26,343 nt of DNA from IMG/VR virus record IMGVR_UViG_3300042292_001106, positions 1-26,343 of that record. The stretch is one strand, 5' to 3'. The position numbers and the translations under genes are program-made. The notes beneath the pieces are model-generated. The model worked only from the letters and a program-made list of their open reading frames with translations. It had not been told where the DNA came from and ran no database searches. This document shows, piece after piece, positions 1,220-21,448 of this stretch. Source of the DNA: a virus. Position 1 is the stretch's first letter. Each line of letters starts with the position of its first letter.

Positions 1220-2362
1220 ATGCATAATATAGCGAACATTAATGTTACCGGTCAATGTATTATATCGGATGACTTAGGTAATATTATATTAGATAAAACT
1301 AATGCTATTCACCCAATGAACGTTTCACGCGCTTTTGCGAGAGGTTTATCGAACGAACCTAACCAATATATTAAACGATTAGCTTTTGGAAACGGTGGTA
1401 CCTTCGTAGATATAGCTCAAAACATCACTTACAATAACGTCAATGATGGTATATACCCCGATATAGCTGGATATAAATCAAGGTTGTATAATGAGACTTA
1501 TTCGGAAATAGTGGATGAACTAGATAATGTCATAGGTAGTGGTCCAGGAGCATCTAAAAAAGATGACCCTGAAAGTTCACCAAACAGTTTATATGGACCC
1601 GGTGTTGTTAGTGTCGAACAGCAAAACTTAACAACAAAATTATGGAATTCTAAGGTTATAACTACCTGCGTACTTAATCGCAATGAACCAACTAGTCAAT
1701 ATGTTTCAGATCTAAATGGAACTGTCGATGCTGCTAATTCCGTTTTTGAATTCGATGAACTTGGTTTGTTTATTGGTGGAGTTACCTCAGATGTACCGAC
1801 AAGTGGTGTTCAATCGGTGTCATTTATGACACCAAACCTATACGTCAATACAGGGTTAGTAATCAATACTAATTATACACTAACTGTAACCGTTGATAGT
1901 AAAACATTAGCATACCAAATATACACTGACCAAAAATACGCGTATATGACGACAGTAAATAACGTCGATGTCTATACCATTCGTTTTGTTGATTTAGTTA
2001 CATTATTAAATGATTCAATGCCTCAATTAACAGTTACAATGTTAGAAGGTAATGCAATTAATGGTTCGTATTTTGGCTATATGTCTTTTACCAGTAAAAC
2101 AACCGGTATTAACTCAGAAGTTTATATAAAAGAAGAAACCAATAATTCTGATTGGTTATTTGGAAATATTCAATTATTTGCAGGTACAAATGAACCAATT
2201 GCAGGTGTTAGTATAGGTACGCAAAATAACCCTAATGAACCAGCAGCGGAAGCTGCAAGAATGATAACACATTTGATATTTGAACCAATTCGTAAACCAA
2301 TGAATAGAACCTATATTGTTAAATATATTTTAGATATCGTTGTAGCGCAGACAATCAAATGA
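1220..2362 (+). CDS. Tail/baseplate-type structural protein, paralogue 1 of 3 (380 aa)
   Basis: First of three consecutive paralogues. The shared N-terminus (about residues 8-95) has G-x-C-I-I-S-D-D, LDKTNAIHPMNVSRAFARGL, LAFGNGGT, a Tyr/Asn/Asp segment ending NDGIYPDIAG, and LYNETYSE. A second conserved block is FDELGLF (178-184), and a third is ITHLIFEPIRKP (349-360) with a beta strand after it. About 165 residues separate the last two blocks; paralogue 2 has only about 25 there, so a domain seems inserted (about 190-340). The start has a good ribosome site (gggag) and abuts the upstream stop. Its stop overlaps the next start as ATGA. I know this pattern only as an unnamed phage structural family; the baseplate/fibre role is inferred from neighbours. 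Confidence 0.72.
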   Translation: MHNIANINVTGQCIISDDLGNIILDKTNAIHPMNVSRAFARGLSNEPNQYIKRLAFGNGGTFVDIAQNITYNNVNDGIYPDIAGYKSRLYNETYSEIVDELDNVIGSGPGASKKDDPESSPNSLYGPGVVSVEQQNLTTKLWNSKVITTCVLNRNEPTSQYVSDLNGTVDAANSVFEFDELGLFIGGVTSDVPTSGVQSVSFMTPNLYVNTGLVINTNYTLTVTVDSKTLAYQIYTDQKYAYMTTVNNVDVYTIRFVDLVTLLNDSMPQLTVTMLEGNAINGSYFGYMSFTSKTTGINSEVYIKEETNNSDWLFGNIQLFAGTNEPIAGVSIGTQNNPNEPAAEAARMITHLIFEPIRKPMNRTYIVKYILDIVVAQTIK

Positions 2363-3084
2363 AATATTTACCAGTCTATGTAGAAGGTCATTGTTTAATA
2401 ACGGATGATTTAGATCAGGTTCATTTAAACCAACTAAATTCTGTCCATTCTGAAAATATGTCGCGCGTTATAGCGCGTGGGTTAGCGCACGAATTTAATA
2501 ATGGTATTTTTCGAATAGCTTTTGGTATCGGTGGTACAACATACACAAACCAAAGTATTACCTATAATACTGTGAATGATACAGGTTGGGATGCAACTTT
2601 ATATAACGAAGTTTATTCAAAATCAGCTCAATTTGGATCTATACATGATATTGTAAGTACAGATAAAACAACATCTGGTGTAGGTACTGCTAGCTTAGAT
2701 AAAGATCGTATTTCACAAACGGTCATATCGTGTAAGATTGGTAAGTTAGAACCTGCTGTACTAAACGGTGTTGAGCAGTTGCAGTCTGATTTTAAACCAA
2801 TTCATTATAATTCATTAGCTGAAAAATATTATGTCGAGGGTCAAAACCCATTTATATTTGATGAAATTGGCTTGTTCACAGATGGGGTACCGTTAAATGA
2901 TATTAATGGACATAAAAACAACCCAATTGATAGTTCACTAGAATTTAGAAGATTGTTAACTCATTTGACATTTTCACCTGTCATGAAAGCAGGTAACCGT
3001 ATCTTTAACATCAAATACACATTAACTGTTTATGTTAATCGTACTGTTGATGCTCCTTCATTAACTATTATTAGACCATCGTAA
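2359..3084 (+). CDS. Tail/baseplate-type structural protein, paralogue 2 of 3 (241 aa)
   Basis: The compact member of the tandem family. It keeps the N-terminal block (EGHCLITDDL, NMSRVIARGLAHE, IAFGIGGT, LYNEVYS), the FDEIGLF block (167-173) and LLTHLTFSPV (199-208). The region between the last two blocks is only about 25 residues, so it lacks the insertion of its neighbours. It also lacks the PDxAGxKS stretch found in paralogues 1 and 3. The start overlaps the previous stop in ATGA, indicating coupled translation. The next gene begins two bases after the stop. It probably represents the ancestral core fold of the family. Function is not recognised beyond a likely virion structural role. Confidence 0.72.
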   Translation: MKYLPVYVEGHCLITDDLDQVHLNQLNSVHSENMSRVIARGLAHEFNNGIFRIAFGIGGTTYTNQSITYNTVNDTGWDATLYNEVYSKSAQFGSIHDIVSTDKTTSGVGTASLDKDRISQTVISCKIGKLEPAVLNGVEQLQSDFKPIHYNSLAEKYYVEGQNPFIFDEIGLFTDGVPLNDINGHKNNPIDSSLEFRRLLTHLTFSPVMKAGNRIFNIKYTLTVYVNRTVDAPSLTIIRPS

Positions 3085-3086
3085 TT

Positions 3087-4355
3087 ATGTATAAAATCTC
3101 AGGACATTGTTTAATAACTGATGAAGCAAATAATGTTATTTTAGATAAAACTAATGACATTCACCCAGGTAATTTCGCTCGTGCTATATCTCGTTCATTA
3201 GCAAATGAAAGTAGTTATTGGATTAATAGCATGGCTTTTGGTTGGGGTGCAACAATAAAAAAATACGACGGTACGTATACTAAGTATAGTCCTAATGACG
3301 GTATTGCTCCTGATTATGCTGGGTGGAAATCATCACTATATAATGAAACGTTTCGAAAATATCTTGATCCTATATCATTAGGTAGCAATACGACTATTGA
3401 AGATGCTATCACACCTCCGGTTATTCCTATCACAACTACACCAATATACACGGAAACTCATAGAAATACTAACGGTGTTGTTAGTTATGTTGATAACAAT
3501 AAATCTATTGTTGAAATTAATTGCATATTGGATGTTGATGAACCTGACGATGGTAAAGTGCTTACATTTGATGAGATAGCGTTGTATACTGGTCCCGTTT
3601 ATAGCACTATAAGTAGCTACCAAGATGTAATGGTAGATACATCTATTAACACTATATACAGCTCAGGTAACATATTAACGATAACTATCAAAGTAGATGA
3701 TTCAACGTTTATGCTTAGTTTCACTGTTACAGGGTCGACATACGATGATATTGTTAACAATTTAAATAAAAAATTACGTAATTATTATTGCTATGCTGAA
3801 TTAAAGTCAGATAGAATTAGATTTCATAACAATTATAAAGTCGTTAAAATTGTTAGTTCGTCTTTCTTAACAGGTTTAACTATAAATGATACGGTTATTG
3901 TTGATAACCCTAAATCATTAGCTAGTGTCGCAGAGAATGGTACGTTTAAAAATAATCCTATGACGCCTGACCTTGAAAAACCAAGGTTATTAACTCATTT
4001 AATATTTGAACCTATTGATAAACCAAGACTTAGTACATATTATATCAAATATAAGCTAACTATTGAAGTTGAACCTACACCCAAGAAAGATAATAACCTC
4101 GAATTTGTACTACCAAATGACTATAGAATGGTTAATACATATGAGTATAATGCGGTTCTACCGTCTAGAACATGGGTTGTTTTCCACCAATTAGGTTATA
4201 CACCTAGAGTTGATGTTTTTAATGATGGTGTGATGTTAGTTAAAGATAACGATTATTCTTTGTCATATGGTGACGCTGGTACTGAAAATGCAGCAGATAA
4301 TCAAGTTACAATTAGGTTTAAAGTACCACAGACAGGAACAGCAAGATTTTATTAA
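3087..4355 (+). CDS. Tail/baseplate-type structural protein, paralogue 3 of 3, with C-terminal fibre module (422 aa)
   Basis: It shares SGHCLITDE, VILDKTNDIHPGNFARA, LYNETF, FDEIALY (161-167) and LLTHLIFEPIDKP (301-313) with the two genes before it. It is closest to paralogue 1, including NDGIAPDYAG. An insertion of about 130 residues sits between the FDE and LTH blocks and looks beta-rich. After the family core, at about residues 349-422, comes one copy of the Trp/His module (TWVVFHQLGYTPRVDVF, ending FKVPQTGTARF), so this is a fusion of two elements otherwise encoded separately here. The stop codon lies in a strong hairpin. A structural role is inferred; the product family is unnamed to me. 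Confidence 0.72.
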   Translation: MYKISGHCLITDEANNVILDKTNDIHPGNFARAISRSLANESSYWINSMAFGWGATIKKYDGTYTKYSPNDGIAPDYAGWKSSLYNETFRKYLDPISLGSNTTIEDAITPPVIPITTTPIYTETHRNTNGVVSYVDNNKSIVEINCILDVDEPDDGKVLTFDEIALYTGPVYSTISSYQDVMVDTSINTIYSSGNILTITIKVDDSTFMLSFTVTGSTYDDIVNNLNKKLRNYYCYAELKSDRIRFHNNYKVVKIVSSSFLTGLTINDTVIVDNPKSLASVAENGTFKNNPMTPDLEKPRLLTHLIFEPIDKPRLSTYYIKYKLTIEVEPTPKKDNNLEFVLPNDYRMVNTYEYNAVLPSRTWVVFHQLGYTPRVDVFNDGVMLVKDNDYSLSYGDAGTENAADNQVTIRFKVPQTGTARFY

Positions 4356-7158: not shown

Positions 7159-7422
7159 CTATTCATATTCACTGGTTGTGGTTGATTTGTCAAATAGTTT
7201 TTCTCCTAATTTGACAACCAATGTTTGCATCCACTTCTTAACTACCGTCTCATCAGCAGTGCCTGCAAACCCTTTTTTACGCAAATACTCTACAAAATTT
7301 TCATCCCATTCGTATGAGACTTCTTCCACATTGCGTTCTGGATGCATTTGTACCGTTAAAGTAAAAACACATGTATCTTTTGCTACTTCTTTTATTTCTT
7401 TTTTCTTTTTAAACCATAACAT
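7159..7422 (-). CDS. Small tandem-duplicated phage protein, copy B (87 aa)
   Basis: Paralogue of the gene just upstream: EWDENFVEYLRKKGFAGTADETVVKKWMQ aligns without gaps to the corresponding part of the 75-aa neighbour. Both start with a short hydrophobic/basic segment (MLWFKKKKEIKE here). The shared part looks like a helical motif of about 30 residues with F-V-E-Y-L-R, a Gly-rich turn and W-M-Q. The gene begins one base after the stop of its paralogue, so the pair is coupled. Function is not recognised. The basic N-terminus could contact nucleic acid or membrane, but this is speculation. Confidence 0.72.
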   Translation of the reverse strand: MLWFKKKKEIKEVAKDTCVFTLTVQMHPERNVEEVSYEWDENFVEYLRKKGFAGTADETVVKKWMQTLVVKLGEKLFDKSTTTSEYE

Positions 7423-7423
7423 G

Positions 7424-7651
7424 TTATGTACCTAATCTTGGGTCGTTACTGTCGCAAATATTTTGCATCCATTGCTCGACTATTAACTCATCTGAATCAC
7501 CAACGTATCCGTTAGCTCTTAAGTATTCAACAAATTCATTGTTCCAATCTAATTTGAATTTGTACCCGTGTTCAGGGTCGTGAGTAGTCTCGAGTATGTT
7601 GACGTATGGCTCTATTGTTTTTGTCTTTTTCTTAAATATGTTCTTTAACAT
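7424..7651 (-). CDS. Small tandem-duplicated phage protein, copy A (75 aa)
   Basis: It starts MLKNIFKKKTK, a hydrophobic/basic leader like its neighbour's, followed by the shared segment DWNNEFVEYLRANGYVGDSD and LIVEQWMQ. The real ribosome site is probably the strong AAGGAGAAC about 12 bases upstream of the ATG. That sequence is also the 3' arm of a 9-bp inverted repeat in the leader, so translation may be modulated. It follows the sliding clamp gene after a 100-base gap with possible promoter elements. No functional family is recognised. Confidence 0.72.
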   Translation of the reverse strand: MLKNIFKKKTKTIEPYVNILETTHDPEHGYKFKLDWNNEFVEYLRANGYVGDSDELIVEQWMQNICDSNDPRLGT

Positions 7652-8460: not shown

Positions 8461-11400
8461 CTAAAAATTAAATAATTCATCAGCATGCACAGTTTGTGCT
8501 GTTGGCACTGATACGTCAATAGCTTTTAATATATTTTGCAACGGGTTATCAACTAACCTTGATAGTTGTTTTGTTTTGTCGATTTGAGGTACGAAGTTTT
8601 CCATAAACCAATCAGGTATGTGTTCAATATCAGATGGTAACGCGATTGAAGTGAACTTACCTAACATCTTGGTTTTTAAATAGTAAACACGAATTTTCAT
8701 ACCAGATGTTATTATTTCTGTATCGTTATCTCCGTATTCCTTTAACCTTTCATTAAAATGCAACGCTGCTGCTACGTTACCGGGTAATCTCGCTTTTACG
8801 CCATCAACACGATATACCATTTCGTATTTTTCAAGATTATTAACATTCTTTGGTAATCCAACATCTACTAGATTATCAAATGCCATTAATCCTTCTTTAT
8901 AGTTGACGATATCAATAGCTATCGTACTCCAATCTTCACCATATAATAACCGTCTAATAAAGTCTGTAAGTTTAGCTGAAATAATTTTTGGTAATGTTGT
9001 CTTTTTAATATCAAGACCCATAATTTTCATTTTATCAACAGTTTCACCTTCATTATCTACAACATGTAAGATGTATCTTTTCTTTTCAACAAATAACCCA
9101 TGGTCACTTACAACTTCACGTCCACATTTTACTTGTAAGTCGTATTCTGGTTGACAATGAAACGCTTTTCTCATAAATGCTGGGTATGATTGATTTACAG
9201 CTTCTGCTACTGCATCAGCAAATTCGATAGCTTCTTCTTTATTGTTTGCTGGCACTGTAAAATATGTCGAATCTGTGTCACCATAGACTACAACCTGAGA
9301 AGAAAATTCACCATTGAATTTAGGACCATCTAAAGCCATCTCATGTGTTACAAAACCAGGATGATAATATTCTTTATGATCTAAATCTACTAAATCAGCT
9401 AATGATGCAGGCTGTACTGTACTACTATCATCTTCAATCTCATCAGTAAATTCAAATTCGCCGTCTTCTTCTGCTAAACGCTTACTCGTTTCTTTATTAA
9501 TGTTATCAATAATAGCCATACTTTCGTAAATAGGAAAATCAATATAGTATTCACCGTCGATAATATAGTTAGTCTGCCTACATTGATGTCTTAAAATTTG
9601 GCGACTAGTACCTGTGGTCGATTCACCTAACTCTAATCTGAAAAACCTGAAATTGTAGTTACTTAAACAACCATAAGTTGAGTTTAATTTAATTTTGAAA
9701 ATGTATTGTAATCGGTTGTAATACTTAGACTTTTCTGTAATTTCAAAATACTGATCTTTATCATAATCAGTTCTTTCTACAGCATGACCTGACGAGAAAT
9801 CATATTTTAAAGCTTCTGCCTCTTTAACATACTTTCTCATTTCAGCTTGAAACACTTTGCGTTGTGAATACCATTTAGCTAATAATGAAGGAATAATACC
9901 TAACTCTTTCTGTGTAAATACTGTTCCATAACCACTTACAGCCCAACATTGTTCTGCGAAATAATCAACCCATTCTTGAGTTTTCTTTGTTTCATATGAA
10001 CCATTATCATACTTAATAGTAATATCATCTTCAATACCTTCAAAGATTTTAGTCCAATCTTTAATATTATTTTCAAATTGTCCAATAACAGTTTCAGGAC
10101 TAATATTAATAGCTCGAATTGCTGATGGGTAAAGTGAATTTATATCAATAGAACAAATCCATTTATGCAAACCTCTTTGAGGAAATAATACATAAGCTCC
10201 TTGAATTTTACCGTCTCTTGTATCCCATCTATCAGGAACGATTCTATCGATCTCATAATGACAATAATTAACGATTGCATTATCTACCATTCGTACCGTA
10301 CCAAAGATATGATTAAACTGATTAGTACTAGAATGAATCATATCATTTGCTAACTGAATATAAGTTAGCTTTGTTTCAAAACCTTTTAGAATCTCCGTAT
10401 CACGAACATTGTATCGTAAAAAATGATTAAAATCGTTTGTATATAGCTGTTCTAATGAACCAGGGTATGTTAGTTTTTTAAGATGAGGTAAGTGATCTTC
10501 AGCTACAGACTCCAATTTAAAGCTAGCACGTTCACCACCTTCAAACTTCTTAAATAGTTCAAGGTAATCAAGTTGAACACGACCGCTATAATCTACACGT
10601 AATTGTTTAGCACCTTTGACAAATAATTCTCGAAACATTGGTGTATTAGCACCTTCGAAACTTAATCGTTTGAATTGATCAGCTCCTAATACCATTTCGA
10701 TACGTCTTGCTACATATGGATCATCGAAACCATTTGAATTATGAGTTTCAATACCATTACATACGAAATAATCTTTCTCTGTCATTATATCATACATCGT
10801 AACGTCTTCCAACTGCTCTATGCTACGAATTTTCACTATAATATAATCATCTGTTACAAATTTACGTAACCGTTTTGACGATGAGTTACTAATCGATACA
10901 GGTTCAATTTTGTTTTCAATGTGTGATTTACGTTTAGGGTGTATTAAACTCAAACTATCATATAAATGTTTGTTTGTTTCATAATTTGGTATAGCTAATG
11001 ATGTTGACCCACACCCGGATACATATACATCGTTCCATAATAATAATTTGTTCATCGTAAACATATCATTATTATAGTTGCATAAATTGATGGCTCCAAC
11101 CTCTTGTGTAATCCAACCATCTCCATCAACAAAACCACTAAAAAATGCGGTAAATTGGGTAAATGATAACCTTGATAATAAAGTAACATCTAAACGCTTA
11201 TGCCTGTTTGAGTAAATCATCATATGCAGAAATGAGAATTTGTTACTTGCGGGTATACCTCTATAGTAACAACCATCTCTACTAGGTTTGAGATCCAAAT
11301 TTAGTTTATTAACTAAGTTTTCATTAAAAGCAACATTCGTATAGTGTTGCATAACTTCAATATACTTGTTACACATACTATACTTTTTATCGTAATTTGA

Positions 11401-12882
11401 ATAAAATCCGTCTGTATATATGAACCCTAGCAATTGAAGTATATCTTTTGATATCACTTCATTTGGGTTCATTTCATACATTGTGGTTTTACCACTATCT
11501 ACTGTCTTAAAGTATACAATATCATCTCGTAACCATTCATGAACCATTTCTTTTGGTATTGTACTGTATACATCGTTTAACCTAATAGCTAATTTTTTCC
11601 GTTTAGCGTAAACATTCTCATCATTAATGATAGTTTTGATTGTTTCAGGTACACAACTAAGTATTTGTTCAATCAACGATTCAGTATGAATGTAGATCTC
11701 AACACCCGATTCAAAAAGCTGTTCAAAATGATCTATTATCAAATCACGGTAGGTGAGGTCTCGGTTTACGTTTTTATGACGATGCATCATAACGTAAACA
11801 TCAGTATCACTATCATTCACGAGATCTACCACTTCATGTAACGGTAAGTCTTGTTTTGTTTTTAACAAATTACCTAAGCTTGAATAGTTCGTATGGTTTT
11901 TAGTAAATACAGGAAATACGTGATCGGCTGAGGTTTCAACAATAGTACCTGTATATGTTGTTAACCTATACGATTTTTTAACACCTGTGTTTTTATGTGC
12001 TCGTATAGTTCCATGCATCATGGTTTGTTGACCAGCTTTTACCGATTTTATTGGTAAAATTCTATCTGATAAGAATACACTTTCGTTTTCAGATACACAG
12101 TTCCAACCAGACAGCAAACTTGCGTCTTCTATCTCATCAAGATAAGCTAATAACAGCTCTTTTTCGTTTTTATAAAATCTAATTTCAGTTAATTCATGTA
12201 AAGATTGATCAATTGTGCTGAGATCAAAACCCGGAGGGGGTACTGCCATTACGATCGACTTATCTAACCATTGCTTGTATATTGATACTGCATTGATTGG
12301 TGCATATGGATTTAGAGGACTACTAAAACCAACAGGACCTTCATAAGCTAAGCTTGAATGCGGGTATAATTTCCAATACTTATTTTTTGGATCGTAAACT
12401 TCAATTGTTAATTGTTGTTTAGCTGATAAGTTGCGTATCTCACCTATCGGTGTATCAATTACTTTTTCAGTTCCAACCATTCTTGCTTTTGCTACAAAAT
12501 CATCTCCATACGAGATAGTTTTGTAATCTACTTCGATATCATACAGAAGAACGTTTAATGTAGCTGATGGTTTTTCGTAATAATGTTTTGATAGAACTTT
12601 TGTATCTGGTGAAATATCAGATTCATATAACTTCAGATTTTTTTCTGTTAGTAGGTATTTTCTAGCTTGTCTGAACTCTGTATATGTATCAAACTCATAC
12701 TTTGTGAGCTTTTCATTAAAAACACTTGTAAACTCACCGTCGTCTTTTTTAACATAAAACTCAAAAACTCCTGGATGTCGTTTAAGTGTGTTTTTACCGT
12801 CAATACATTCCCATACAAGAACTTCATCGCTATTGATGAAGCCTCTGTCATCACGTTTCATTATAGCGCTAATATAAGTCAT
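8461..12882 (-). CDS. 43: Family-B replicative DNA polymerase with in-frame intein (1473 aa precursor)
   Basis: The host protein has exonuclease motif I LLYDIEV (D115, E117), motif II split by an intein (GWN at 259-261 and SNGFDDPYVARR from 716) and motif III YNVRDTE (D828). The polymerase motifs are A (SIDINSLYPS, D913), B (KIKLNSTYG, about 1063-1071) and C (VYGDTDS, D1202 and D1204), with KKRY at 1267-1270. Without the intein (C262-N715) it is 1019 residues, somewhat longer than T4 gp43 (898). The C-terminus ends ELFNF, like the acidic/Phe clamp-binding tail of T4 gp43. All catalytic residues are present, so spliced protein should polymerise and proofread. GAGG precedes the ATG. The clamp gene follows 10 bases downstream and a small gene lies just upstream. 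Confidence 0.95.
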   Translation of the reverse strand: MTYISAIMKRDDRGFINSDEVLVWECIDGKNTLKRHPGVFEFYVKKDDGEFTSVFNEKLTKYEFDTYTEFRQARKYLLTEKNLKLYESDISPDTKVLSKHYYEKPSATLNVLLYDIEVDYKTISYGDDFVAKARMVGTEKVIDTPIGEIRNLSAKQQLTIEVYDPKNKYWKLYPHSSLAYEGPVGFSSPLNPYAPINAVSIYKQWLDKSIVMAVPPPGFDLSTIDQSLHELTEIRFYKNEKELLLAYLDEIEDASLLSGWNCVSENESVFLSDRILPIKSVKAGQQTMMHGTIRAHKNTGVKKSYRLTTYTGTIVETSADHVFPVFTKNHTNYSSLGNLLKTKQDLPLHEVVDLVNDSDTDVYVMMHRHKNVNRDLTYRDLIIDHFEQLFESGVEIYIHTESLIEQILSCVPETIKTIINDENVYAKRKKLAIRLNDVYSTIPKEMVHEWLRDDIVYFKTVDSGKTTMYEMNPNEVISKDILQLLGFIYTDGFYSNYDKKYSMCNKYIEVMQHYTNVAFNENLVNKLNLDLKPSRDGCYYRGIPASNKFSFLHMMIYSNRHKRLDVTLLSRLSFTQFTAFFSGFVDGDGWITQEVGAINLCNYNNDMFTMNKLLLWNDVYVSGCGSTSLAIPNYETNKHLYDSLSLIHPKRKSHIENKIEPVSISNSSSKRLRKFVTDDYIIVKIRSIEQLEDVTMYDIMTEKDYFVCNGIETHNSNGFDDPYVARRIEMVLGADQFKRLSFEGANTPMFRELFVKGAKQLRVDYSGRVQLDYLELFKKFEGGERASFKLESVAEDHLPHLKKLTYPGSLEQLYTNDFNHFLRYNVRDTEILKGFETKLTYIQLANDMIHSSTNQFNHIFGTVRMVDNAIVNYCHYEIDRIVPDRWDTRDGKIQGAYVLFPQRGLHKWICSIDINSLYPSAIRAINISPETVIGQFENNIKDWTKIFEGIEDDITIKYDNGSYETKKTQEWVDYFAEQCWAVSGYGTVFTQKELGIIPSLLAKWYSQRKVFQAEMRKYVKEAEALKYDFSSGHAVERTDYDKDQYFEITEKSKYYNRLQYIFKIKLNSTYGCLSNYNFRFFRLELGESTTGTSRQILRHQCRQTNYIIDGEYYIDFPIYESMAIIDNINKETSKRLAEEDGEFEFTDEIEDDSSTVQPASLADLVDLDHKEYYHPGFVTHEMALDGPKFNGEFSSQVVVYGDTDSTYFTVPANNKEEAIEFADAVAEAVNQSYPAFMRKAFHCQPEYDLQVKCGREVVSDHGLFVEKKRYILHVVDNEGETVDKMKIMGLDIKKTTLPKIISAKLTDFIRRLLYGEDWSTIAIDIVNYKEGLMAFDNLVDVGLPKNVNNLEKYEMVYRVDGVKARLPGNVAAALHFNERLKEYGDNDTEIITSGMKIRVYYLKTKMLGKFTSIALPSDIEHIPDWFMENFVPQIDKTKQLSRLVDNPLQNILKAIDVSVPTAQTVHADELFNF
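10738..12099 (-). other. Intein with LAGLIDADG homing endonuclease in the DNA polymerase (454 aa)
   Basis: The element runs from C262 to N715 of the precursor. The N-terminal splicing block begins CVSENESVFLSDR. Block B is GTIVETSADHVFPVF. The C-terminal block is MYDIMTEKDYFVCNGIETHN, with the expected penultimate His and terminal Asn, followed by Ser+1 of the host. Two LAGLIDADG-type motifs lie in between: LLGFIYTDGF (about 484-493) and FSGFVDGDGWI (about 581-591), each with an acidic residue in the catalytic place. All splicing residues look intact. The insertion splits exonuclease motif II between GWN and SNGFDDPY. The boundaries are exact on the standard C...HN/S rule. Confidence 0.93.
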
Positions 12883-13480: not shown

Positions 13481-15886
13481 CTACCTAGCTTTGTAGAATG
13501 GATCCACTGCATATTTTGGAAAGTTTTTCCGTTTATTTAACCATGTACCTGCATCTTGAACTCGAATACCACCTGCACTTGATGCTGATTCAGATATCTG
13601 CAATTTACCTGTATTTGGATCTTGGATAACTTGTACAATGTGGTCGATACCTTTGTATCTTCCTGCGCCTGTACTTCCTGCGCCATAATCAACGCCAATT
13701 ACCATACCTGGTTTGAGGTTATCAGTATTAACACTTGATCCTGTTAGCTCTTGACCAGATGCATTACCGACAGTTTGTACAATACCAGCAGCTGTATTAC
13801 CCTTTTTCATTAAGTTGTAGCCATCTGTGATATTTGGATCATTTGCATTAGCAGCAGCTTCTTTAGTGTTTGCTAAAACCCAACCTGAACAATCAACTTT
13901 ACCAGAATTTGGGTCTCTAGCTCCCAATTCATATTTTACACCTTTATCGAGTGCGTTATTAGTACCTGATACTAAACTATCATTTAATGATTTAGTACTT
14001 CCTGTACCTCTTGTACCTGATGGTACTTGCGTATCATTTGTTGATGGTGTAGTCGATGATGATGGTAATTCATCAACAGTTTGAGGTTTATAAGTACCAC
14101 CATGCTGTTCGTACCATTTTAATAATGTAGCTTCACTATGCGCTTTTAATGATGACCATGTCCCTGGTAATTTTCTAATCGCTTCAGCTGGTTTACCTTG
14201 TACAACAAGATCATAAGCACCTTTTGATTTCATTAATGATATAGCCATGCGATCTTGCGAACTAGGTGAAAAATCACCACCACATGATGCTTTTAGTCCA
14301 TCAAATGTACCAACGAGAATTTGGTATTTACCAGCAGGTGTATGTTTCGTACCGCTAGTCGACCATGGTTTAACATGCCATGGATGTGTCGCATAACCTT
14401 CAAATAATACACCGGTCCATCGTACGTTATAACCATTATCGCCGCGACCGTATGTACCTTCAGCATGAGATAACATTTCTAAGAACGCTTTTACATTAGC
14501 TCCTTTTGTTTCATTAATCGCGCTATCTGCTGGTTTGCTAACTGACGTAGATTTTTTTGGTGGGTTCTTACCAGCTATAGTACCTTCTTTTGTATTAGAT
14601 TGGTCTGCCATTGACTGTAATTCTAGGAATTGAACAAACTCACCTTTTGTAAATTTACTTGTTATTTTCTTAATTGTAAAATGAAGTTTATCCATCCAAA
14701 ACGGGGTACTATAAAAATTATCATTATCACCTAATATCGCACCTTGCATATATGAAGGTTTCGGTGATCTAATATTAATACGAACTTTTAATAGCCCGGA
14801 TTGATTTGCTCCTGTTTTTGCTGCATGTTCATCTTTTTTTGCTTTCACTGCTGATGGAGATGGATCAGAGTACGTATCCGAAGGTAGTACATAACCTGCA
14901 AGCAATAAAGGATTACCAACAATTTTCAATGTACTGTTTGTACTCGTTAGCATATTAGAGATTTGATCAGATATGTTCTTTCTTGCAGCAAATAACGTTT
15001 CTGGACTTAATGATCCGCTACCTGTACGTAGCGGATCAACTGTTGTTAATCCAACATGATCGTTAGGGGTATCAGCTAATATGCTATTAGATCGTACTCT
15101 CGATGTAGAAGTATCTCTTGCTTCACCAGCATTTGTGTTGGGTTTTTTATTTGTTGTGGTCTCATTATCTGGTAATATATCTTTATTGGTGTTGCTTGCT
15201 GTTGGGTGCACAACTTGAATAGATTTTAATGAATTGAAAGCTAATTTCACATTCATATCAAATTGTATTACATCTACATTAACACCTGTGTAGATGTAAT
15301 CATATTCGAGTACATCAGGTAATTTTGAAAAATCTTCAGCTTGTTGATTAGATTGTGCTGTAGTTCCGCCGTTGGTACCTGTACTTGAGCTGCTACCTGA
15401 GGGTGTTGCTACATCAGCGCCAGGTTTCATAGGTCTTGTGAACTTCTCGATATGGTAAGTAACGATTTGTTCTTTTGTATTAGGATCTGTAGATAACGTA
15501 CTACTGATACGCGGTGCGTATGTTTTTGGGTTGTTTGGATCGGTGTTATCTACGTTCATCATATCTTCATGAACAGCTTTACTCATTAACATGATATTCG
15601 TTAATGCATCTGGTATTTTATCGCCAATAGCTGTTTGAAATATGATTGGATCAGCTTGTTTGGGAACTGATGGTGAGGTACTAGGTGTTAAATTTGGATT
15701 TTGTGAATTTCCTGTGTTGAGATCAGCGGTTGAACCTACTATTTTTAAATCGGTAGACGGTTTAGCATCTATTAGCGATGGTGTTAATTTGGGGTTACCT
15801 ACCGTAGTGTCTGCAGCTGCATCAACCTTATCGTATGCAGATGGTTCAAGTTTAAAATTTGGGTCAAGATTTGATTCACTGGTCAT
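13481..15886 (-). CDS. Baseplate hub protein with lambda R-type muramidase and NlpC/P60 peptidase domains (801 aa)
   Basis: Residues 1-80 are Pro/Thr/Asn-rich linker. About 80-430 looks like a hub/VgrG-type core (LKIVGNPLLLAGYVLP, LLKVRINIRSP, KITSKFTKGEFVQFLELQSM). Residues 463-600 resemble phage lambda endolysin R, a lytic transglycosylase: FLEMLSHAEGTYG with likely catalytic E476, HTPAGKYQILVGTFDG, DFSPSSQDRMAI and the terminal WYEQHGG. After a Ser/Thr/Gly linker (605-635), residues 645-800 look like NlpC/P60: KVDCSGWV with C666, GIDHIVQVI with H749 and a polar third-residue candidate at E766. T4 gp5 carries one lysozyme; here two different activities, glycan and peptide cleavage, are fused. 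No ribosome site precedes the ATG; the upstream stop is five bases away, suggesting re-initiation. Confidence 0.82.
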   Translation of the reverse strand: MTSESNLDPNFKLEPSAYDKVDAAADTTVGNPKLTPSLIDAKPSTDLKIVGSTADLNTGNSQNPNLTPSTSPSVPKQADPIIFQTAIGDKIPDALTNIMLMSKAVHEDMMNVDNTDPNNPKTYAPRISSTLSTDPNTKEQIVTYHIEKFTRPMKPGADVATPSGSSSSTGTNGGTTAQSNQQAEDFSKLPDVLEYDYIYTGVNVDVIQFDMNVKLAFNSLKSIQVVHPTASNTNKDILPDNETTTNKKPNTNAGEARDTSTSRVRSNSILADTPNDHVGLTTVDPLRTGSGSLSPETLFAARKNISDQISNMLTSTNSTLKIVGNPLLLAGYVLPSDTYSDPSPSAVKAKKDEHAAKTGANQSGLLKVRINIRSPKPSYMQGAILGDNDNFYSTPFWMDKLHFTIKKITSKFTKGEFVQFLELQSMADQSNTKEGTIAGKNPPKKSTSVSKPADSAINETKGANVKAFLEMLSHAEGTYGRGDNGYNVRWTGVLFEGYATHPWHVKPWSTSGTKHTPAGKYQILVGTFDGLKASCGGDFSPSSQDRMAISLMKSKGAYDLVVQGKPAEAIRKLPGTWSSLKAHSEATLLKWYEQHGGTYKPQTVDELPSSSTTPSTNDTQVPSGTRGTGSTKSLNDSLVSGTNNALDKGVKYELGARDPNSGKVDCSGWVLANTKEAAANANDPNITDGYNLMKKGNTAAGIVQTVGNASGQELTGSSVNTDNLKPGMVIGVDYGAGSTGAGRYKGIDHIVQVIQDPNTGKLQISESASSAGGIRVQDAGTWLNKRKNFPKYAVDPFYKAR

Positions 15887-15891
15887 AATAG

Positions 15892-17088
15892 TTATCGTTT
15901 AGGTATTGTTAAACTGTCAGTGATAGCTTTAGCAATAACACTATCAAATTTTGTTGCCGCATCAATTTTAGCATTCTGTAAAGACGTGTCAGGGTCTTGA
16001 CCTTTAGATATCGATTGATTAAACAAATTATCACGATAATCCTTATATTTTTGATAATTCGTTTGATCCATCACACGAAGCTTATCTTCACCGTAGTTGA
16101 TTGTTGCCATATCATACTGTGATTGATTTAAAACACCTGTTGAATTTTTTTGACTTTGGGTGTTTTGTGTAGATTGTGTGGGAATCGAGGACGTACTTTG
16201 AGCTGTTTGATCTGTAAAGTTTTGTGGTTTTTCACTAGGTGTGTTATTTTTTGTTAACGGTTGTGTACCGTTGAACGTGTTTCGTTGATCATCTGATACA
16301 ATATCCATTTTATATTTTGGATCATTATACGCAGGATCTAACACAACTTTATATTTGTATGTAGGTTGATCTGGAAATGCTTCTTGTGATAATTTTGTAT
16401 TGTTGTTAAGTTCGTTTTCGTACTTAGTGATAGCGTCAGGTATAGCTTCTGGTAAAGTGGTAGACATCCCACCGATTTTACCAATGCTGTGATGATTTGC
16501 TGCACTATTAAATAACGGGGTACATTCAATATCGTAATGACAGCCTCTATTAGTCATTGACATTTTTATCTCTGTTAATACAAATGTCAATAAATTAACA
16601 TCACTTATAACATGAGGTTTTGATGTATTATTATCATCAGGGTACCCCATGAATATAATCTTTAATCCATAATGTAATTCTTGTACTCCTGGTAACCCTA
16701 AATTACTAGCAACAACTTCAAGCACCCCTATAAAATCAGCTGTATACGGCTCTACTATTTCAATTTTAAGAGAAACACCCTGCTCATTAGTAGCATTGTA
16801 GCTATGCGTTGAACCGTTAAGAGATAACCCATAATCTAATGTAACAGAATCAATTGAAAATTCAACATCTTTCATTGAATTATACACTACAATATATGTA
16901 CTCCCAGATACATCTTTTGTATCATATTTGTACTGTGGTCCACCTTCGGGGTGAAGATATCGACTTAAATCGGAAACATCTTCATCTTTATCAATATTTG
17001 TAAGTGCAACATCATCTTTTGCGCACATCAATACGAAATGATACTGCGAACCACGATATACATGCAACGGGTTAGGTACTTTTGCCAT
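15892..17088 (-). CDS. Baseplate hub-type protein (398 aa)
   Basis: The N-terminus PNPLHVYRGSQYHFVLMCAKD is a pattern I associate with phage baseplate hub subunits. It is followed by beta-rich stretches (FSIDSVTLDYGLSL, GVSLKIEIVEPYTADFIGVL, LHYGLKIIFMGY, LLTFVLTEIKMSMTNRGCHYDIECTP). The first half thus resembles a tail-tube-like hub domain. From about residue 210 it turns Asn/Gln/Ser/Thr-rich (low-complexity, about 265-330) and ends with a charged helical part. Length matches T4 gp27 (391 aa). It is translated just before the two-enzyme hub protein, so the two probably form the tail tip together. It starts one base after the previous stop. Confidence 0.6.
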   Translation of the reverse strand: MAKVPNPLHVYRGSQYHFVLMCAKDDVALTNIDKDEDVSDLSRYLHPEGGPQYKYDTKDVSGSTYIVVYNSMKDVEFSIDSVTLDYGLSLNGSTHSYNATNEQGVSLKIEIVEPYTADFIGVLEVVASNLGLPGVQELHYGLKIIFMGYPDDNNTSKPHVISDVNLLTFVLTEIKMSMTNRGCHYDIECTPLFNSAANHHSIGKIGGMSTTLPEAIPDAITKYENELNNNTKLSQEAFPDQPTYKYKVVLDPAYNDPKYKMDIVSDDQRNTFNGTQPLTKNNTPSEKPQNFTDQTAQSTSSIPTQSTQNTQSQKNSTGVLNQSQYDMATINYGEDKLRVMDQTNYQKYKDYRDNLFNQSISKGQDPDTSLQNAKIDAATKFDSVIAKAITDSLTIPKR

Positions 17089-17089
17089 A

Positions 17090-17371
17090 TTAAATCATAC
17101 CTTCTGTGAACCGCATAGGTGAAGGTATCGTTAGTACCACACCTTCAATAAATTCATCATAAACATCAACAATATCATTGTACTGCAAAATGAACCACAT
17201 TACTTCAGATGTACCATAAATATCATTCGCCATTAAATCAGGTCGTCTATGATATTTCTTTGATATTGTTACGGTTAAATCATCGTACGATTTTGTAAAA
17301 GTTTTCCGTGTCCAGAAACTTGTACTATCGGTTGTACCACCTTTTGTGGATCTACTATATTTTTCTACCAT
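17090..17371 (-). CDS. 53: Baseplate wedge protein, T4 gp53-like with LysM-like fold (93 aa)
   Basis: After a polar N-terminus with FWTRKTFTKSYDDLTVTI, residues 44-84 follow the gp53/LysM-type pattern: RPDLMANDIYGTSEVMWFIL, then QYNDIVDVYDEF and VVLTIPSP. Single-domain wedge proteins of this type in phages and contractile injection systems bind baseplate components (P-x-L-x-A-x-x-x-Y-G, W-x-x-x-x-x-N-x-I, then G-x-x-L-x-I-P). Context agrees, between a tube/baseplate connector-like gene and hub genes. The spacings to the neighbours are one and two bases. It is shorter than T4 gp53 (196 aa), keeping only the LysM-like part. Confidence 0.6.
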   Translation of the reverse strand: MVEKYSRSTKGGTTDSTSFWTRKTFTKSYDDLTVTISKKYHRRPDLMANDIYGTSEVMWFILQYNDIVDVYDEFIEGVVLTIPSPMRFTEGMI

Positions 17372-17373
17372 AA

Positions 17374-17967
17374 TTAAAATGAGGGTAATGTTCCACTACG
17401 ATAAGATGCTAAGTTAAATTGCTCATATTCAGCCGCTGAATGTTGCTCCAGTAACTTAAATGACAATGTGGTTACTAACGGAAAAGGAATACCACCTAAA
17501 TCGTCATTTTCACCATTTGATGATGTTGGTATATAGTCACAATCATTAGGAAATGTAAAACTTACTGATTCTACAACAACTGGAATCTTTTTGAAATAAC
17601 CAAGACATGAAAAAAACAACACTTCTGGTGGAGATCCTAACCAATTCATAAGATCTTTTGATAATGGACCTGAAGTATCTCCAAAAAAAGCTTTGGTCCA
17701 TGATTTCATTATTAGTATACGTTCTAAGTTTGCTCTTGCTTCTTGTTGGTTGCGCGAGACAATTTTAAGGTCGGTAATTTCAAATGCGCGACTTGGAGAT
17801 TTCGAGTAAACGTGAAAATCACCAACCATATGAGCAGGTGATAGCGTTTCATATGCTGCTGTGTTGGTTTCATATATAACAGGCATAGTATTAAACACGA
17901 CTATTTTTTGTGAAATCGGTCCTTCTAGCCGTAATTTAAACTTATTTTGCTGTGCGTCTGGTAACAT
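17374..17967 (-). CDS. Baseplate/tail-tube connector-type protein, gp48/gp54-like (197 aa)
   Basis: The sequence has the order seen in phage baseplate proteins that cap or start the tail tube: FEITDLKIVSRNQQEARANL, RILIMKSWTKAFFG, LGSPPEVLFFSCLG, VPVVVESVSFTFPNDCDYIP-type strands (written here in part), then FPLVTTLSFKLLEQHS and EYEQFNLASYRSGTL near the end. I recall such proteins labelled baseplate or tail-tube-initiator in T4-like and other myoviruses, but cannot decide between gp48 and gp54 types. It is the first gene of the minus-strand baseplate run, with a near-consensus late box 30 bases upstream and a weak ribosome site. Confidence 0.55.
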   Translation of the reverse strand: MLPDAQQNKFKLRLEGPISQKIVVFNTMPVIYETNTAAYETLSPAHMVGDFHVYSKSPSRAFEITDLKIVSRNQQEARANLERILIMKSWTKAFFGDTSGPLSKDLMNWLGSPPEVLFFSCLGYFKKIPVVVESVSFTFPNDCDYIPTSSNGENDDLGGIPFPLVTTLSFKLLEQHSAAEYEQFNLASYRSGTLPSF

Positions 17968-17996
17968 ATCGTACTCGGTAAAGACTATTCATTTAG

Positions 17997-18004
17997 TATT
18001 TATT
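17997..18004 (-). promoter_or_regulatory. Near-consensus late promoter box for the baseplate run
   Basis: The minus strand reads AATAAATA, one mismatch from the T4 late TATAAATA. It lies 30 bases upstream of the first baseplate gene start at 17967, a distance suited to a short leader. AT-rich surroundings make chance matches common, so this is tentative. Confidence 0.4.
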
Positions 18005-18032
18005 TTTAACTATAGATTGTTAAAAATAAACG

Positions 18033-18081
18033 TTGAAAAATCTATTATAAATCTATTATATTATTCTATTTGAGGTCAAAA
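18033..18081 (+). promoter_or_regulatory. AT-rich promoter region of the sigma/recombination operon
   Basis: This part of the 114-base divergent gap holds TTGAAA at 18033, TATAAATC at 18046 (one mismatch from the late box), the nine-base direct repeat tctattata at 18041 and 18052, and the ribosome site gagg at 18072 serving ATG 18082. A promoter must lie here since genes diverge, but which box is used cannot be decided by eye. Confidence 0.4.
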
Positions 18082-18615
18082 ATGACAAAGCGTGCACCAA
18101 GAAATTATTTAAGTAATTACAACTTATTAGAACAGATAGCTATAAGCAAAGAAAATAAGAAAATGAGCAATGAATTATTAAAAATGCTTACCTTATTATG
18201 CGACAGATTTGCAACCCGTGGTAACTTCTCCTCATATACTTATCTAGAAGATATGAAGATGAACGCATTAGTTAATTTATGTAACACCTGGGGAACATTT
18301 AACGCTGAACGTTCGAGTAACCCCTTTGCTTATTATACACAATCAATTAAAAATTCTTTTATTCAGTACCTCAAAGTAGAAAAGAAACAAAGAAACATAA
18401 GAGATAGGTTATTAGTTGATTGTGGTGCTAGTCCGTCTCACACATATGCGATTGAAGCATCTATGGAAGGTAATCATATTGTCGATCCAGCTTTATTGTA
18501 TATTAGACGTGATAATTATGAATTTATGAATAAACCTCCAGAAGAATTGAGCGTTATTGATGAACTGGACGCTAAAGCTGATGCAGATGTTCTTGTATTA
18601 GGTGAGGAATTCTAG
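18082..18615 (+). CDS. 55: Late-transcription sigma factor, T4 gp55-like (177 aa)
   Basis: The ATG at 18082 is preferred over the in-frame TTG at 18070 because gagg lies six bases before it. The middle region aligns with T4 gp55: RFATRGNFSSYTYLEDMKMN corresponds to the gp55 segment around RFNFSGYTQSWKQEM, NPFAYYTQSIKNSFIQYL to NPHAYITQACFNAFVQRI, and both continue into a basic KxEKKQR stretch. This is the sigma region 2-like part that recognises the late promoter box. The length is near T4's 185 aa. The acidic C-terminus (DADVLVLGEEF) may correspond to the clamp-binding tail of gp55. It heads the + strand operon followed by gp47 and gp46, the same neighbourhood as in T4. Confidence 0.87.
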   Translation: MTKRAPRNYLSNYNLLEQIAISKENKKMSNELLKMLTLLCDRFATRGNFSSYTYLEDMKMNALVNLCNTWGTFNAERSSNPFAYYTQSIKNSFIQYLKVEKKQRNIRDRLLVDCGASPSHTYAIEASMEGNHIVDPALLYIRRDNYEFMNKPPEELSVIDELDAKADADVLVLGEEF

Positions 18616-18643
18616 TTTATACTAAACAATTAAGAGATATTAT

Positions 18644-19666
18644 ATGAAATTGAAAAGGGGTTTGCTGTTTACGGATATTCATTGGGGTAAGAAACAAAAC
18701 TCTGATGCACATAATGATGATTGTACTAATTTTATTGAATTTTTTTGTGAAAATGTAAAAATTCATAATATTGATCACGTTATATTCCTGGGTGATTGGT
18801 TTGAACATAGAAACGCAATTAATATCTCTACATTAAACTACGCATACCGTGGAGCTAAGCAATTAAATGATTTAGGTATACCGGTGTATTTTATTGTCGG
18901 TAACCACGATATGTACACAAAGGTACATAGAAATATCTATGCTACAATCGAATATAACGAATTTAAAAACTTTCATGTAATTGATCAACCTTTATTGGAA
19001 CCTAAAATTGGTAAAGGTGTTTTATTATGCCCCTATTTAATTCATGAAGAATATAATACCTTAAACAATTATGATGTTCAACATGTTTATGGTCATTTTG
19101 AATTTAATGGGTTTGTTTTAACAGGTGAAACTAATACTTTTTCAGGTGGCTATGATCACACAGATTTTAAAAGATTTAAACGTATTTTTTCTGGACATTT
19201 CCATAAACGTCAAATTACAGGTAATGTCATTTATATCGGAAATACATTCCCAATGGATTTTTCTGATGCAAATGATGTCGATAGAGGTTGCGCTATTCAC
19301 GACCATAGCAATGATACTGTTACTTTTATAAATTGGAAAGAGTGTCCAAAATATATTAGAACTAGCTTATCTGAGATTATTAATGGTACCATCGATATTC
19401 CAGATAACGCGACGGTATCATGCTTAGCAGATATTAATATGGAATATAGTAAAATGATGACACTGAAAAGTGAAATATCAAAAACCTATAACCTTAGCGC
19501 GTTAACTATTACTGAACCCTCGGTAAGTGTTGCCGATGGTGAAGAAGAAGAAATTGAAGATTTAACTACTTCTAATACCCATGAATCAATCATTAATATG
19601 CTTAGTTCGATATCCAATAATGCTATTGATAATAACCAGCTCGTAAAGTTGTATAAAAAGCTATAA
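18644..19666 (+). CDS. 47: Recombination endonuclease subunit gp47 (Mre11/SbcD-like)
   Basis: A metallophosphoesterase with all expected motifs: LLFTDIHWG (D11, H13), FLGDWFEHRN (D51), IVGNHDMY (N87, H88), YGHFEF (H151) and SGHFHKRQ (H185, H187). The protein is Mre11/SbcD type; with gp46 it forms the nuclease that resects DNA ends for recombination-dependent replication. Length equals T4 gp47 (339 aa). A C-terminal acidic stretch (GEEEEIEDL, about 296-304) is followed by a short helix that may bind the gp46 coiled coil. The start is preceded by aagaga. It lies between the sigma factor and gp46, as in T4. Confidence 0.93.
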   Translation: MKLKRGLLFTDIHWGKKQNSDAHNDDCTNFIEFFCENVKIHNIDHVIFLGDWFEHRNAINISTLNYAYRGAKQLNDLGIPVYFIVGNHDMYTKVHRNIYATIEYNEFKNFHVIDQPLLEPKIGKGVLLCPYLIHEEYNTLNNYDVQHVYGHFEFNGFVLTGETNTFSGGYDHTDFKRFKRIFSGHFHKRQITGNVIYIGNTFPMDFSDANDVDRGCAIHDHSNDTVTFINWKECPKYIRTSLSEIINGTIDIPDNATVSCLADINMEYSKMMTLKSEISKTYNLSALTITEPSVSVADGEEEEIEDLTTSNTHESIINMLSSISNNAIDNNQLVKLYKKL

Positions 19667-19714
19667 TAACATATTATAATCATTATACTTCTTAAATTAG
19701 ATTACTGGTGAACT

Positions 19715-21448
19715 ATGCTTACGTTTATAGATATAGAACTTAAAAACTTTCTAAGTTATGGTAATGTTGCTACGAAAGTTCATTTAGATCGTGGTAGCGT
19801 TATTTTAATTTCAGGTCAAAATGGTACAGGTAAAACAACATTAATTAATGCTGTTTATTATACCTGTTACGGTGATTCATTAACAGAGTGTAACGCTGAT
19901 GAATTAATCAATAACATAAACAACCATGATATGGTTTGCACTGTTACGTTTAATCAAGCAGGTACTGGGTATTATAAAATTGTACGTGCTCGTAAAACAA
20001 AAGCTGGTAACTATGTAAAATTCTATCATAATCCAAACGAAAATGAATTTCTTGATGAACATGAAAAAACATTAGATAGTACCCGCAATACAGACGCATT
20101 AATTATTGATACAATAGGTATACCTTCTGATATGTTTAAGCGTATGGTTATTATATCAGCTATTAATACATCGTTTTTAAATATATCTGTCGCTCAACAG
20201 TCAAGCTTTATGGAACGGTTATTTGATCTACATCTGCTTGCTGATAAAGCTACTATTTTAAAAACGCACATCAAAGCAACAGAAGAACAGATTAAAGATC
20301 AAGTAACTAAAATTGATCGTATCAAACAAGAACAAAGTAGATTAGATACGCAAATACTAAACGCTAAATCAAAAGCGTCATCGTTTGATGAAAATAAAGT
20401 AACTCAAATTGGTATGTATAAATCGCAGTTATCAATGATTGAATCAATTGATTTAGATAAAGAGCGTGAATTATATGATAAATCTGTTACCGTAAAAACT
20501 GAAGTGACCGGTATTAAACAACAGCAATCTACTATTAGCAATCAGTATCTTAAATTTACACAGTTAAAAGATAAACATGAACATGAATTAGTGTTATTAA
20601 AAGCTAATAAATGTCCTTATTGTGAACAACAGTATACTAACGAAGAAAAAATAGCACAAAACGAACAAGCTATCGATAAATGCGAAAAAGATATTAACGA
20701 AATGCTTGAGTATTTGACAGAATTAGATGTAGAGTTATCAGAAAAATCTGAAGCTCATAAAAAAATAATTAGTGAATTATCAGTTACAAATTTAGAAGAA
20801 TTGTTGAGTATTCGTAATAAAGCTGATATTATTCAAGGGAAAATTAACGATTTGCATGATAGTAATAATGTATATTTGGAACAGTTAGCTGAATTAGAGC
20901 AAATTCAGCTTGACCCTTGTGATTACGAAAGTCTTGATAAATTAAAATCAATTGTTGAACATCAACAGTTTTTATTGAAATTGTTAACTAAGAAAGACAG
21001 CTTTATTCGTAAAAATCTTTTATCTTCAAATTTAAAATTTTTAAATCAAAGATTAGAACATTATTTAAATGAGTTAGAGTTACCTTACAGGGTATCGTTT
21101 AACTCTAATATGACAGCTGATATTAAGTATTTGGGTAGAGCTATAACTTTTTCTAATCTGTCTCACGGTCAAAGATCTCGAGTTAATATAGGTTTAACTA
21201 TGGCTTTTAGAGATGTTAGACAAAAAATGTGTAGCCCTGTTAATATCTGTTGTTTGGATGAGGTTTTAGATATTGGGTTAGATTCAAAAGTTATGTCATT
21301 AGCTATTAAAATGCTAAAGCGTAAAGCATCGGAAGATAAAATAACAATGTATATTGTAACTCATAAAGATGAGATATCGTCATTGTTCGATAACGTCATG
21401 AATGTCTACATGGAAAATGATTTTAGTAAAATCTCTTTTAATGCTTAA
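19715..21448 (+). CDS. 46: Recombination endonuclease subunit gp46 (Rad50/SbcC-like ATPase)
   Basis: An SMC/Rad50-type ATPase with the full motif set: N-terminal FKNFLSYG-like segment, Walker A GQNGTGKTT (34-42), a coiled-coil arm (about 180-430) with the zinc hook CPYC at 300-303, ABC signature NLSHGQRSRVNIGL (481-493), Walker B INICCLDEVLD (D515, E516) and H-loop H550. Length is close to T4 gp46 (560 aa). It works with gp47 to open and resect DNA ends. A 48-base gap separates it from gp47, with ggtga as ribosome site. No defect is visible. Confidence 0.95.
   Translation: MLTFIDIELKNFLSYGNVATKVHLDRGSVILISGQNGTGKTTLINAVYYTCYGDSLTECNADELINNINNHDMVCTVTFNQAGTGYYKIVRARKTKAGNYVKFYHNPNENEFLDEHEKTLDSTRNTDALIIDTIGIPSDMFKRMVIISAINTSFLNISVAQQSSFMERLFDLHLLADKATILKTHIKATEEQIKDQVTKIDRIKQEQSRLDTQILNAKSKASSFDENKVTQIGMYKSQLSMIESIDLDKERELYDKSVTVKTEVTGIKQQQSTISNQYLKFTQLKDKHEHELVLLKANKCPYCEQQYTNEEKIAQNEQAIDKCEKDINEMLEYLTELDVELSEKSEAHKKIISELSVTNLEELLSIRNKADIIQGKINDLHDSNNVYLEQLAELEQIQLDPCDYESLDKLKSIVEHQQFLLKLLTKKDSFIRKNLLSSNLKFLNQRLEHYLNELELPYRVSFNSNMTADIKYLGRAITFSNLSHGQRSRVNIGLTMAFRDVRQKMCSPVNICCLDEVLDIGLDSKVMSLAIKMLKRKASEDKITMYIVTHKDEISSLFDNVMNVYMENDFSKISFNA

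Follow-up and report, generated by a model that had tools for sequence, protein, structure and literature searches.

Positions 13481-15886 (minus strand) very probably encode the distal half of the tail hub, of the gp27 type, in a contractile phage related to T4 (probability roughly 0.8); the hub is laid out as two adjacent ORFs, the second of which ends in two predicted hydrolase domains. Within the window, i.e., the whole 26,343-base virus record analyzed, this interval is exactly one ORF running from ATG to the stop codon, with a product of 801 aa (P0001), in agreement with the coordinates of an earlier note made on the same DNA. That note placed two hydrolases in series on one hub chain and named E476, C666, and H749 as active-site residues; both the serial arrangement and the residue positions hold. 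From its N-terminus, the protein contains a conserved platform corresponding to the second half of a gp27-type hub (residues 79-432, positions 14591-15652, with the motif DYIYTGxNxD), a predicted lambda R-type lytic transglycosylase domain (residues 463-600, 14087-14500), and an NlpC/P60-superfamily-like cysteine peptidase domain (residues 645-801, 13484-13954), all on the minus strand.

The ORF is surrounded by T4-type replication and baseplate genes, namely, those for a family B DNA polymerase, 5'-3' exonuclease, DsbA, and gp53 (all by Pfam), as well as a weak clamp match nearby (PHROG 223). Next to the hub genes lies a baseplate gene for a gp53-like wedge protein of 93 aa (17090-17371, minus strand; Pfam Phage_gp53 E=1.7e-5, PHROG 7145 baseplate wedge 7.4e-13), and then a gene for a 197-aa virion protein (17374-17967, minus strand; PHROG 12050), which is kept beside the hub in relatives. 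Gene order around the hub is conserved in two of these, L002 and L009. A DNA search with the first 25,000 bases of the window against 50,697 phage records returned no close match. By polymerase sequence, the best-matching cultured phages are the jumbo phages CM1, RAS14, and XacN1 (43-44%), and the nearest cultured polymerase relatives have Stenotrophomonas and Xanthomonas as hosts. In the synteny comparison with XacN1 and RAS14, both phages have matches to the polymerase and RNase H, DsbA is matched in XacN1 only, and the hub was found in neither. With the platform, the peptidase domain, and the neighboring 398-aa protein as queries, tblastn against cultured phages gave no match. It appears that the window belongs to an uncultivated T4-related virus of bacteria.

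Annotation of the window itself provides no support for a tail hub, and the identity came through relatives and a structural model. An iterative search from the window recovered L002/L003 (73% identical and of the same design), then L009, and then L013-L018. The AlphaFold model of a fused relative, L103, built from 60 rows, has a pLDDT of 66.2 and a pTM of 0.65; for most of residues 1-353 the pLDDT is near 90. All of its 37 PDB matches at E<=1e-3 are tail, baseplate, tail-tip, contractile-injection, or VgrG entries, among them VgrG, PVC and other injection systems, P1, Mu gp44, and the T4 cell-puncturing device. For the L103 model, VIA gives Z scores of 13.0 and 10.3 for 8kea and Mu 1wru, respectively. 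As for T4, 1k28 chain D, which is gp27, aligns with Z of 10.9 over 231 residues at 4.4 Å; this alignment spans model residues 11-624, and therefore both hub halves take part in it. Viral database models sharing the L103 fold include proteins named "phage tail lysozyme domain-containing protein" and "Peptidase M15B", as well as a protein of Agrobacterium phage Atu_ph07, and there are weak tblastn links to Atu_ph07 and the PA5oct group. Because the 801-aa window protein did not model (pLDDT 27.9 from only 2 rows), its fold was taken from L103, and on this modeled fold the platform is assigned to the gp27-type hub family. Structure prediction, which the earlier note had proposed as a check, thus yields a gp27-like fold for the relative but none for the window protein itself.

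The hub assignment of the earlier note also stands for only part of the structure: the hub continues in the ORF upstream (15892-17088, minus strand, 398 aa), so the note covers the second of two hub parts. The two ORFs are separated by 5 bases and are out of frame, whereas in some relatives their counterparts are joined on one chain. According to phmmer, the 398-aa protein matches 9 of 58 fused hubs at E<=1, and the best-matching stretch is N-terminal in all 9; the best matches are L013 (3.2e-58) and L103 (1.2e-45). The platform matches the portion after the 398-aa-like part, at residues 446-783 in L013 (2.4e-55) and 281-623 in L103 (1.2e-29), and likeness to it at E<=0.01 is found in 63 of the 75 non-redundant hubs of the family described below. 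Separate out-of-frame ORFs occur in the window, L002, and L009 (gaps of 5, 28, and 28 bases, respectively). Judged from these sequence comparisons, the window hub is split, the 398-aa ORF being its first half and the 801-aa ORF its second. In T4 (PMC3004832), gp27 forms a pseudo-sixfold ring with two homologous barrels on one chain. For the lineage of the window we tentatively propose, at somewhat less than even odds, a 3+3 ring of two different chains (398 and 801 aa), the second subunit bearing exchangeable wall-cutting modules. If this two-chain ring is true, having two genes could make it easier to exchange the half that bears the enzymes, with the other half left untouched.

Among the two enzymatic domains, the transglycosylase is the more readily recognized one. 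Residues 465-582 match lambda lysozyme (PDB 1am7) with phmmer E=2.6e-14, far beyond chance, in line with the family named in the earlier note. A tblastn search found 547 phage records, and the matches listed (50 of 547) all fall within residues 425-598. The DNA pattern for the transglycosylase occurs in 528 viral stretches, 455 of which encode a relative. In the alignment of the best 80 of these 455 with the window, the column of E476 (codon at 14459-14461), which aligns with the lambda R glutamate, holds Glu in 72 of 81 rows and gaps in the remaining 9, i.e., Glu in 72 of 72 rows with a letter, while G519, Y521, Q522, and D545 occur in every one of the 81 rows. Residues 463-600 are accordingly classed by homology as a lambda R-type lytic transglycosylase with predicted activity. 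In 78 of the same best 80 loci the stop-to-stop stretch around the domain is short (149-249 aa) and resembles a stand-alone endolysin; the remaining 2 loci belong to the hub of L002 and its twin. The lambda R endolysin has a homologous transglycosylase with the same Glu, but is a stand-alone lysis enzyme, unlike the hub-borne domain of the window. A single clade for the transglycosylases of window/L002 and L013 is not rejected (p-AU 0.44), the L013 branch being very long, and the two may or may not stem from a single capture.

As for the C-terminal domain (residues ~645-801), it is real and conserved, being 86% identical in L002, and its relation to NlpC/P60 is remote. A Pfam scan of the whole 801-aa protein gave no hit, NlpC/P60 included, and the domain alone scores 14.6 bits against NLPC_P60 (PF00877; E 0.033), below the curated cut-off of 23 bits; it falls below the NCBIfam cut-offs too. 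A six-frame PF00877 search found no match in the window, the same search being positive in 12 of 14 control genomes. Because of the score below the PF00877 cut-off and the absence of a six-frame match, the domain was filed only as a relative of the NlpC/P60 superfamily. A DNA pattern for K-x-DCSGWV is found in 13 viral stretches, two of them contigs of L002 and L003. Relatives of the peptidase domain reported by phmmer are L138 (4.7e-28), L147 (1.3e-26), L144 (1.6e-22), L143 and L141 (about 6e-17 and 7e-17), and the incomplete L146 (1.1e-10); L140 and L145 are unconvincing by phmmer, and L139, L142, and L149 have no frame carrying the motif. Over the six aligned members (window, L002 twin, L138, L141, L144, and L147), the candidate nucleophile C666 (13889-13891, motif DCSGW) and the candidate catalytic H749 (13640-13642, motif IDHI) are invariant, and the candidate third residue E766 (13589-13591) is Glu in five and Gln in L138.

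The C666 and H749 motifs stand in NlpC/P60 order, as in MepS, MepH, NlpC, and CHAP. Profile-profile comparison by hhalign with E. coli MepS/MepH/NlpC gives P of 8.7e-5, which becomes 3.8e-4 when YafL and lambda K are added to the E. coli set and 1.8e-5 when YafL and the CHAP row of L013 are added. Controls with 5 unrelated alignments range from 0.17 to 0.74, the hub alignment (A12) gives 0.59, and none of 50 column-shuffle controls against the related target set (A13) falls below 0.099. A PDB profile search with the peptidase alignment places thioredoxin on top (E=0.28) and the NlpC/P60 protein Spr at 0.63; with more rows Spr becomes top at only 0.82, and these matches are weak and mixed. Unlike NlpC/P60 peptidases, the window domain stays under the Pfam cut-off and, when aligned with the E. 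coli proteins, carries a long insert that separates its Cys motif from its His motif. We take residues ~645-801 as a predicted, remote cysteine peptidase of the NlpC/P60 superfamily that is not a Pfam member; the NlpC/P60 identity given in the earlier note therefore survives at the superfamily level only. The domain is also present in giant tape-measure-like ORFs (L141, L143, L144, and L147), and in L147, by eye, it directly follows an SLT-like stretch.

The wider hub family was collected with the DNA pattern DYI[YW][TS]GxNxD, found in at least 120 viral stretches. These loci contain at least 135 ORFs with the motif, all over 250 aa, of which 75 are left at 90% identity; the sample is non-random, being chosen by one motif, and the family is larger than the sample. 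The Pfam scan covered 73 of the 75 (L047 and L069 left out), and a recognized hydrolase is present in 14 of 73, with none recognized in most. Two or more hydrolases are found in 4 of these 14: the window and L002 have the lambda R type and NlpC-like pair (detected outside Pfam), L013 has the lambda R type and CHAP as well as a third stretch that matches PHROG 873 "endolysin", and L095 has SLT plus Phage_lysozyme2. L009 carries a single GH73 on the same hub (PF01832 E=5.3e-27), L017 and L103 carry Phage_lysozyme2, and SLT is present in L099, L123, L114, L023, L062, L054, and L067. By eye, L019 looks SLT-like, and the C-terminus of L045:1446-3881 looks M15 peptidase-like (HxxxxAIDVR, HFHIEYD); with no such Pfam family at 0.01, both were counted as having none, and including them gives 16 of 73. 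L094, L079, L035, and L036 have long Gly/Ala/Ser-rich C-terminal extensions with no domain recognized. Several family members match PHROG 11190, and for this reason its label "head and packaging" is probably wrong.

In the platform tree, computed for 71 of the 75 hubs (without L025, L047, L068, and L069), all hydrolase-bearing hubs fall within a single group of 24 rows, and the 47 other rows are without hydrolase. The window and L002 are sister to L009 (support 100/97), followed by L013 (99/96). Since these neighbors in the tree bear differing enzymes, the C-terminal module must have changed at least once among them. The flanking polymerase is 80-85% identical between the window and L009 despite the changed hub C-terminus. 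Because relatives bear other enzymes or none at the same place, the wall-cutting end has the look of an interchangeable part of the hub. Different hydrolases on the same hub in close relatives constitute a natural set of module swaps, and the DYI[YW][TS]GxNxD motif is a simple marker of a large, mostly unannotated hub family. The suggestion of a host with a tough or modified wall finds no support, because the sister L009 has one GH73 on the same hub and most members have no recognized enzyme.

It is highly improbable that the 801-aa ORF is the equivalent of T4 gp5, i.e., a spike with a tail lysozyme, here with an enzyme of another family. The ORF does lie near a gp53-like gene, as in the T4 order, where gene 5 is close to the gp53 gene, and it does contain a lysozyme-type domain. 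However, the platform family model matches hub proteins (T4 1k28 chain D and Mu gp44) over both halves, the enzymes are C-terminal and not flanked by two spike domains, the 801 aa contain no tandem pair of VxGxxxxx repeats of the gp5 beta-helix type, and Pfam reports no T4-type lysozyme domain in the protein, the lambda R type being there instead. The gp5 candidate was rejected on the platform family, the repeats, and the lysozyme family, and gp27 (the hub) replaces gp5 (the spike) as the yardstick that the earlier note had chosen. There is similarly very little to recommend both domains as a captured endolysin for lysis from within, merely carried on the hub gene: the short, endolysin-like stretches in 78 of 80 transglycosylase loci speak for it, but the hub fusion is kept in L002 (73%), the combination of transglycosylase and Cys peptidase recurs in L013, and other hubs of the family bear tail lysozymes or SLT domains.

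Less remote, though still unlikely, is that the transglycosylase alone acts on the wall and that the C-terminal domain is non-catalytic or serves differently (wall binding, amidase, or self-processing). Scores under the Pfam and NCBIfam cut-offs and the variable third residue would fit such a role, as would the cleavage of TP901-1 Tal itself ahead of its catalytic part, reported in PMC11409707. They are opposed by the Cys and His invariant in all six members and in NlpC/P60 motif order, by the relatives in tape-measure-like ORFs (after SLT-like sequence in L147), and by the CHAP peptidase that L013 carries at the same place. The two-enzyme hub is the preferred reading. By analogy with T4 and TP901-1 Tal, the hub enzymes at the lower end of the tube probably open the wall locally on contraction. 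The transglycosylase domain would cut glycan strands and the NlpC/P60-superfamily domain stem or cross-link peptides; on a threefold hub each enzyme would be present three times, suspended beneath the tube by flexible linkers, sheath contraction would carry the enzymes into the periplasm, and there they would make a local hole for the tube and DNA. Joint cutting of glycan and peptide should open the hole more readily than either alone. In this mechanism we infer the threefold symmetry, virion location, enzyme activities, and timing.

The closest published design is Tal of the Lactococcus phage TP901-1, which, according to PMC11409707, has an N-terminal gp27 fold, a linker, and two catalytic domains on one chain, the first lysozyme-like and the second a D,D-endopeptidase. 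Set in a T4-related phage, the window protein resembles Tal as a hub with two enzymes: both join a hub and (predicted, for the window) murein hydrolases on one chain, though half of the window hub is on a neighboring chain. In contrast to the window, Tal belongs to a non-contractile phage of a Gram-positive host and has a single-chain hub and other enzyme families. Its Gly-rich cleavage site is missing from the window protein, while L009 and L013 have Gly-rich stretches there. The two-enzyme strategy, which the earlier note regarded as a distinct mode of entry, is therefore not new in itself, Tal having been described already (PMC11409707). T4 gp27-gp5 also has a gp27-type hub central in a contractile baseplate together with a tail lysozyme (PMC3004832), but there the lysozyme is single, of T4-lysozyme type, and located on the spike gp5, and gp27 is one chain. 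The phi29 gp13 protein has lysozyme-like and endopeptidase domains at the tail tip; unlike the window protein it is a podovirus knob protein, and the passage of PMC9863714 on it describes no gp27 hub.

According to section 3.1.3 of the same review (PMC9863714), virion lysins carry one catalytic domain in phages of Gram-negative hosts and frequently two in those of Gram-positive hosts; the window hub would be an exception to this single-domain pattern if its host is Gram-negative. A jumbo-phage survey mentions NlpC/P60 proteins that are sometimes tail-associated (PMC7824862). A literature search with most subscription papers outside it found no description of a transglycosylase and NlpC pair on a hub, although this does not prove that none exists. 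The novelty seems to lie in the combination: a gp27-type hub that is split and belongs to a T4-related phage, its lambda R and NlpC-like pair, and the presence of other enzymes at that place in close relatives.

Elsewhere in the window, the DNA polymerase gene (8461-12882, minus strand) has an intein-like insert at residues 293-715 (PF14890 E=2.5e-5, below the cut-off). The L002 polymerase is without this insert and has one at another site instead, with an HNH-looking ORF (L002:9512-10510); the L009 polymerase has an insert too, near the second site used in L002. Three tandem ORFs of 380, 241, and 422 aa with similar N-termini (1220-4355, plus strand) are probable duplicated tail or fiber proteins, and a tandem is also present in L009 at 16885-20044. 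Two small neighboring ORFs (7159-7422 and 7424-7651, minus strand) are apparent copies of each other.
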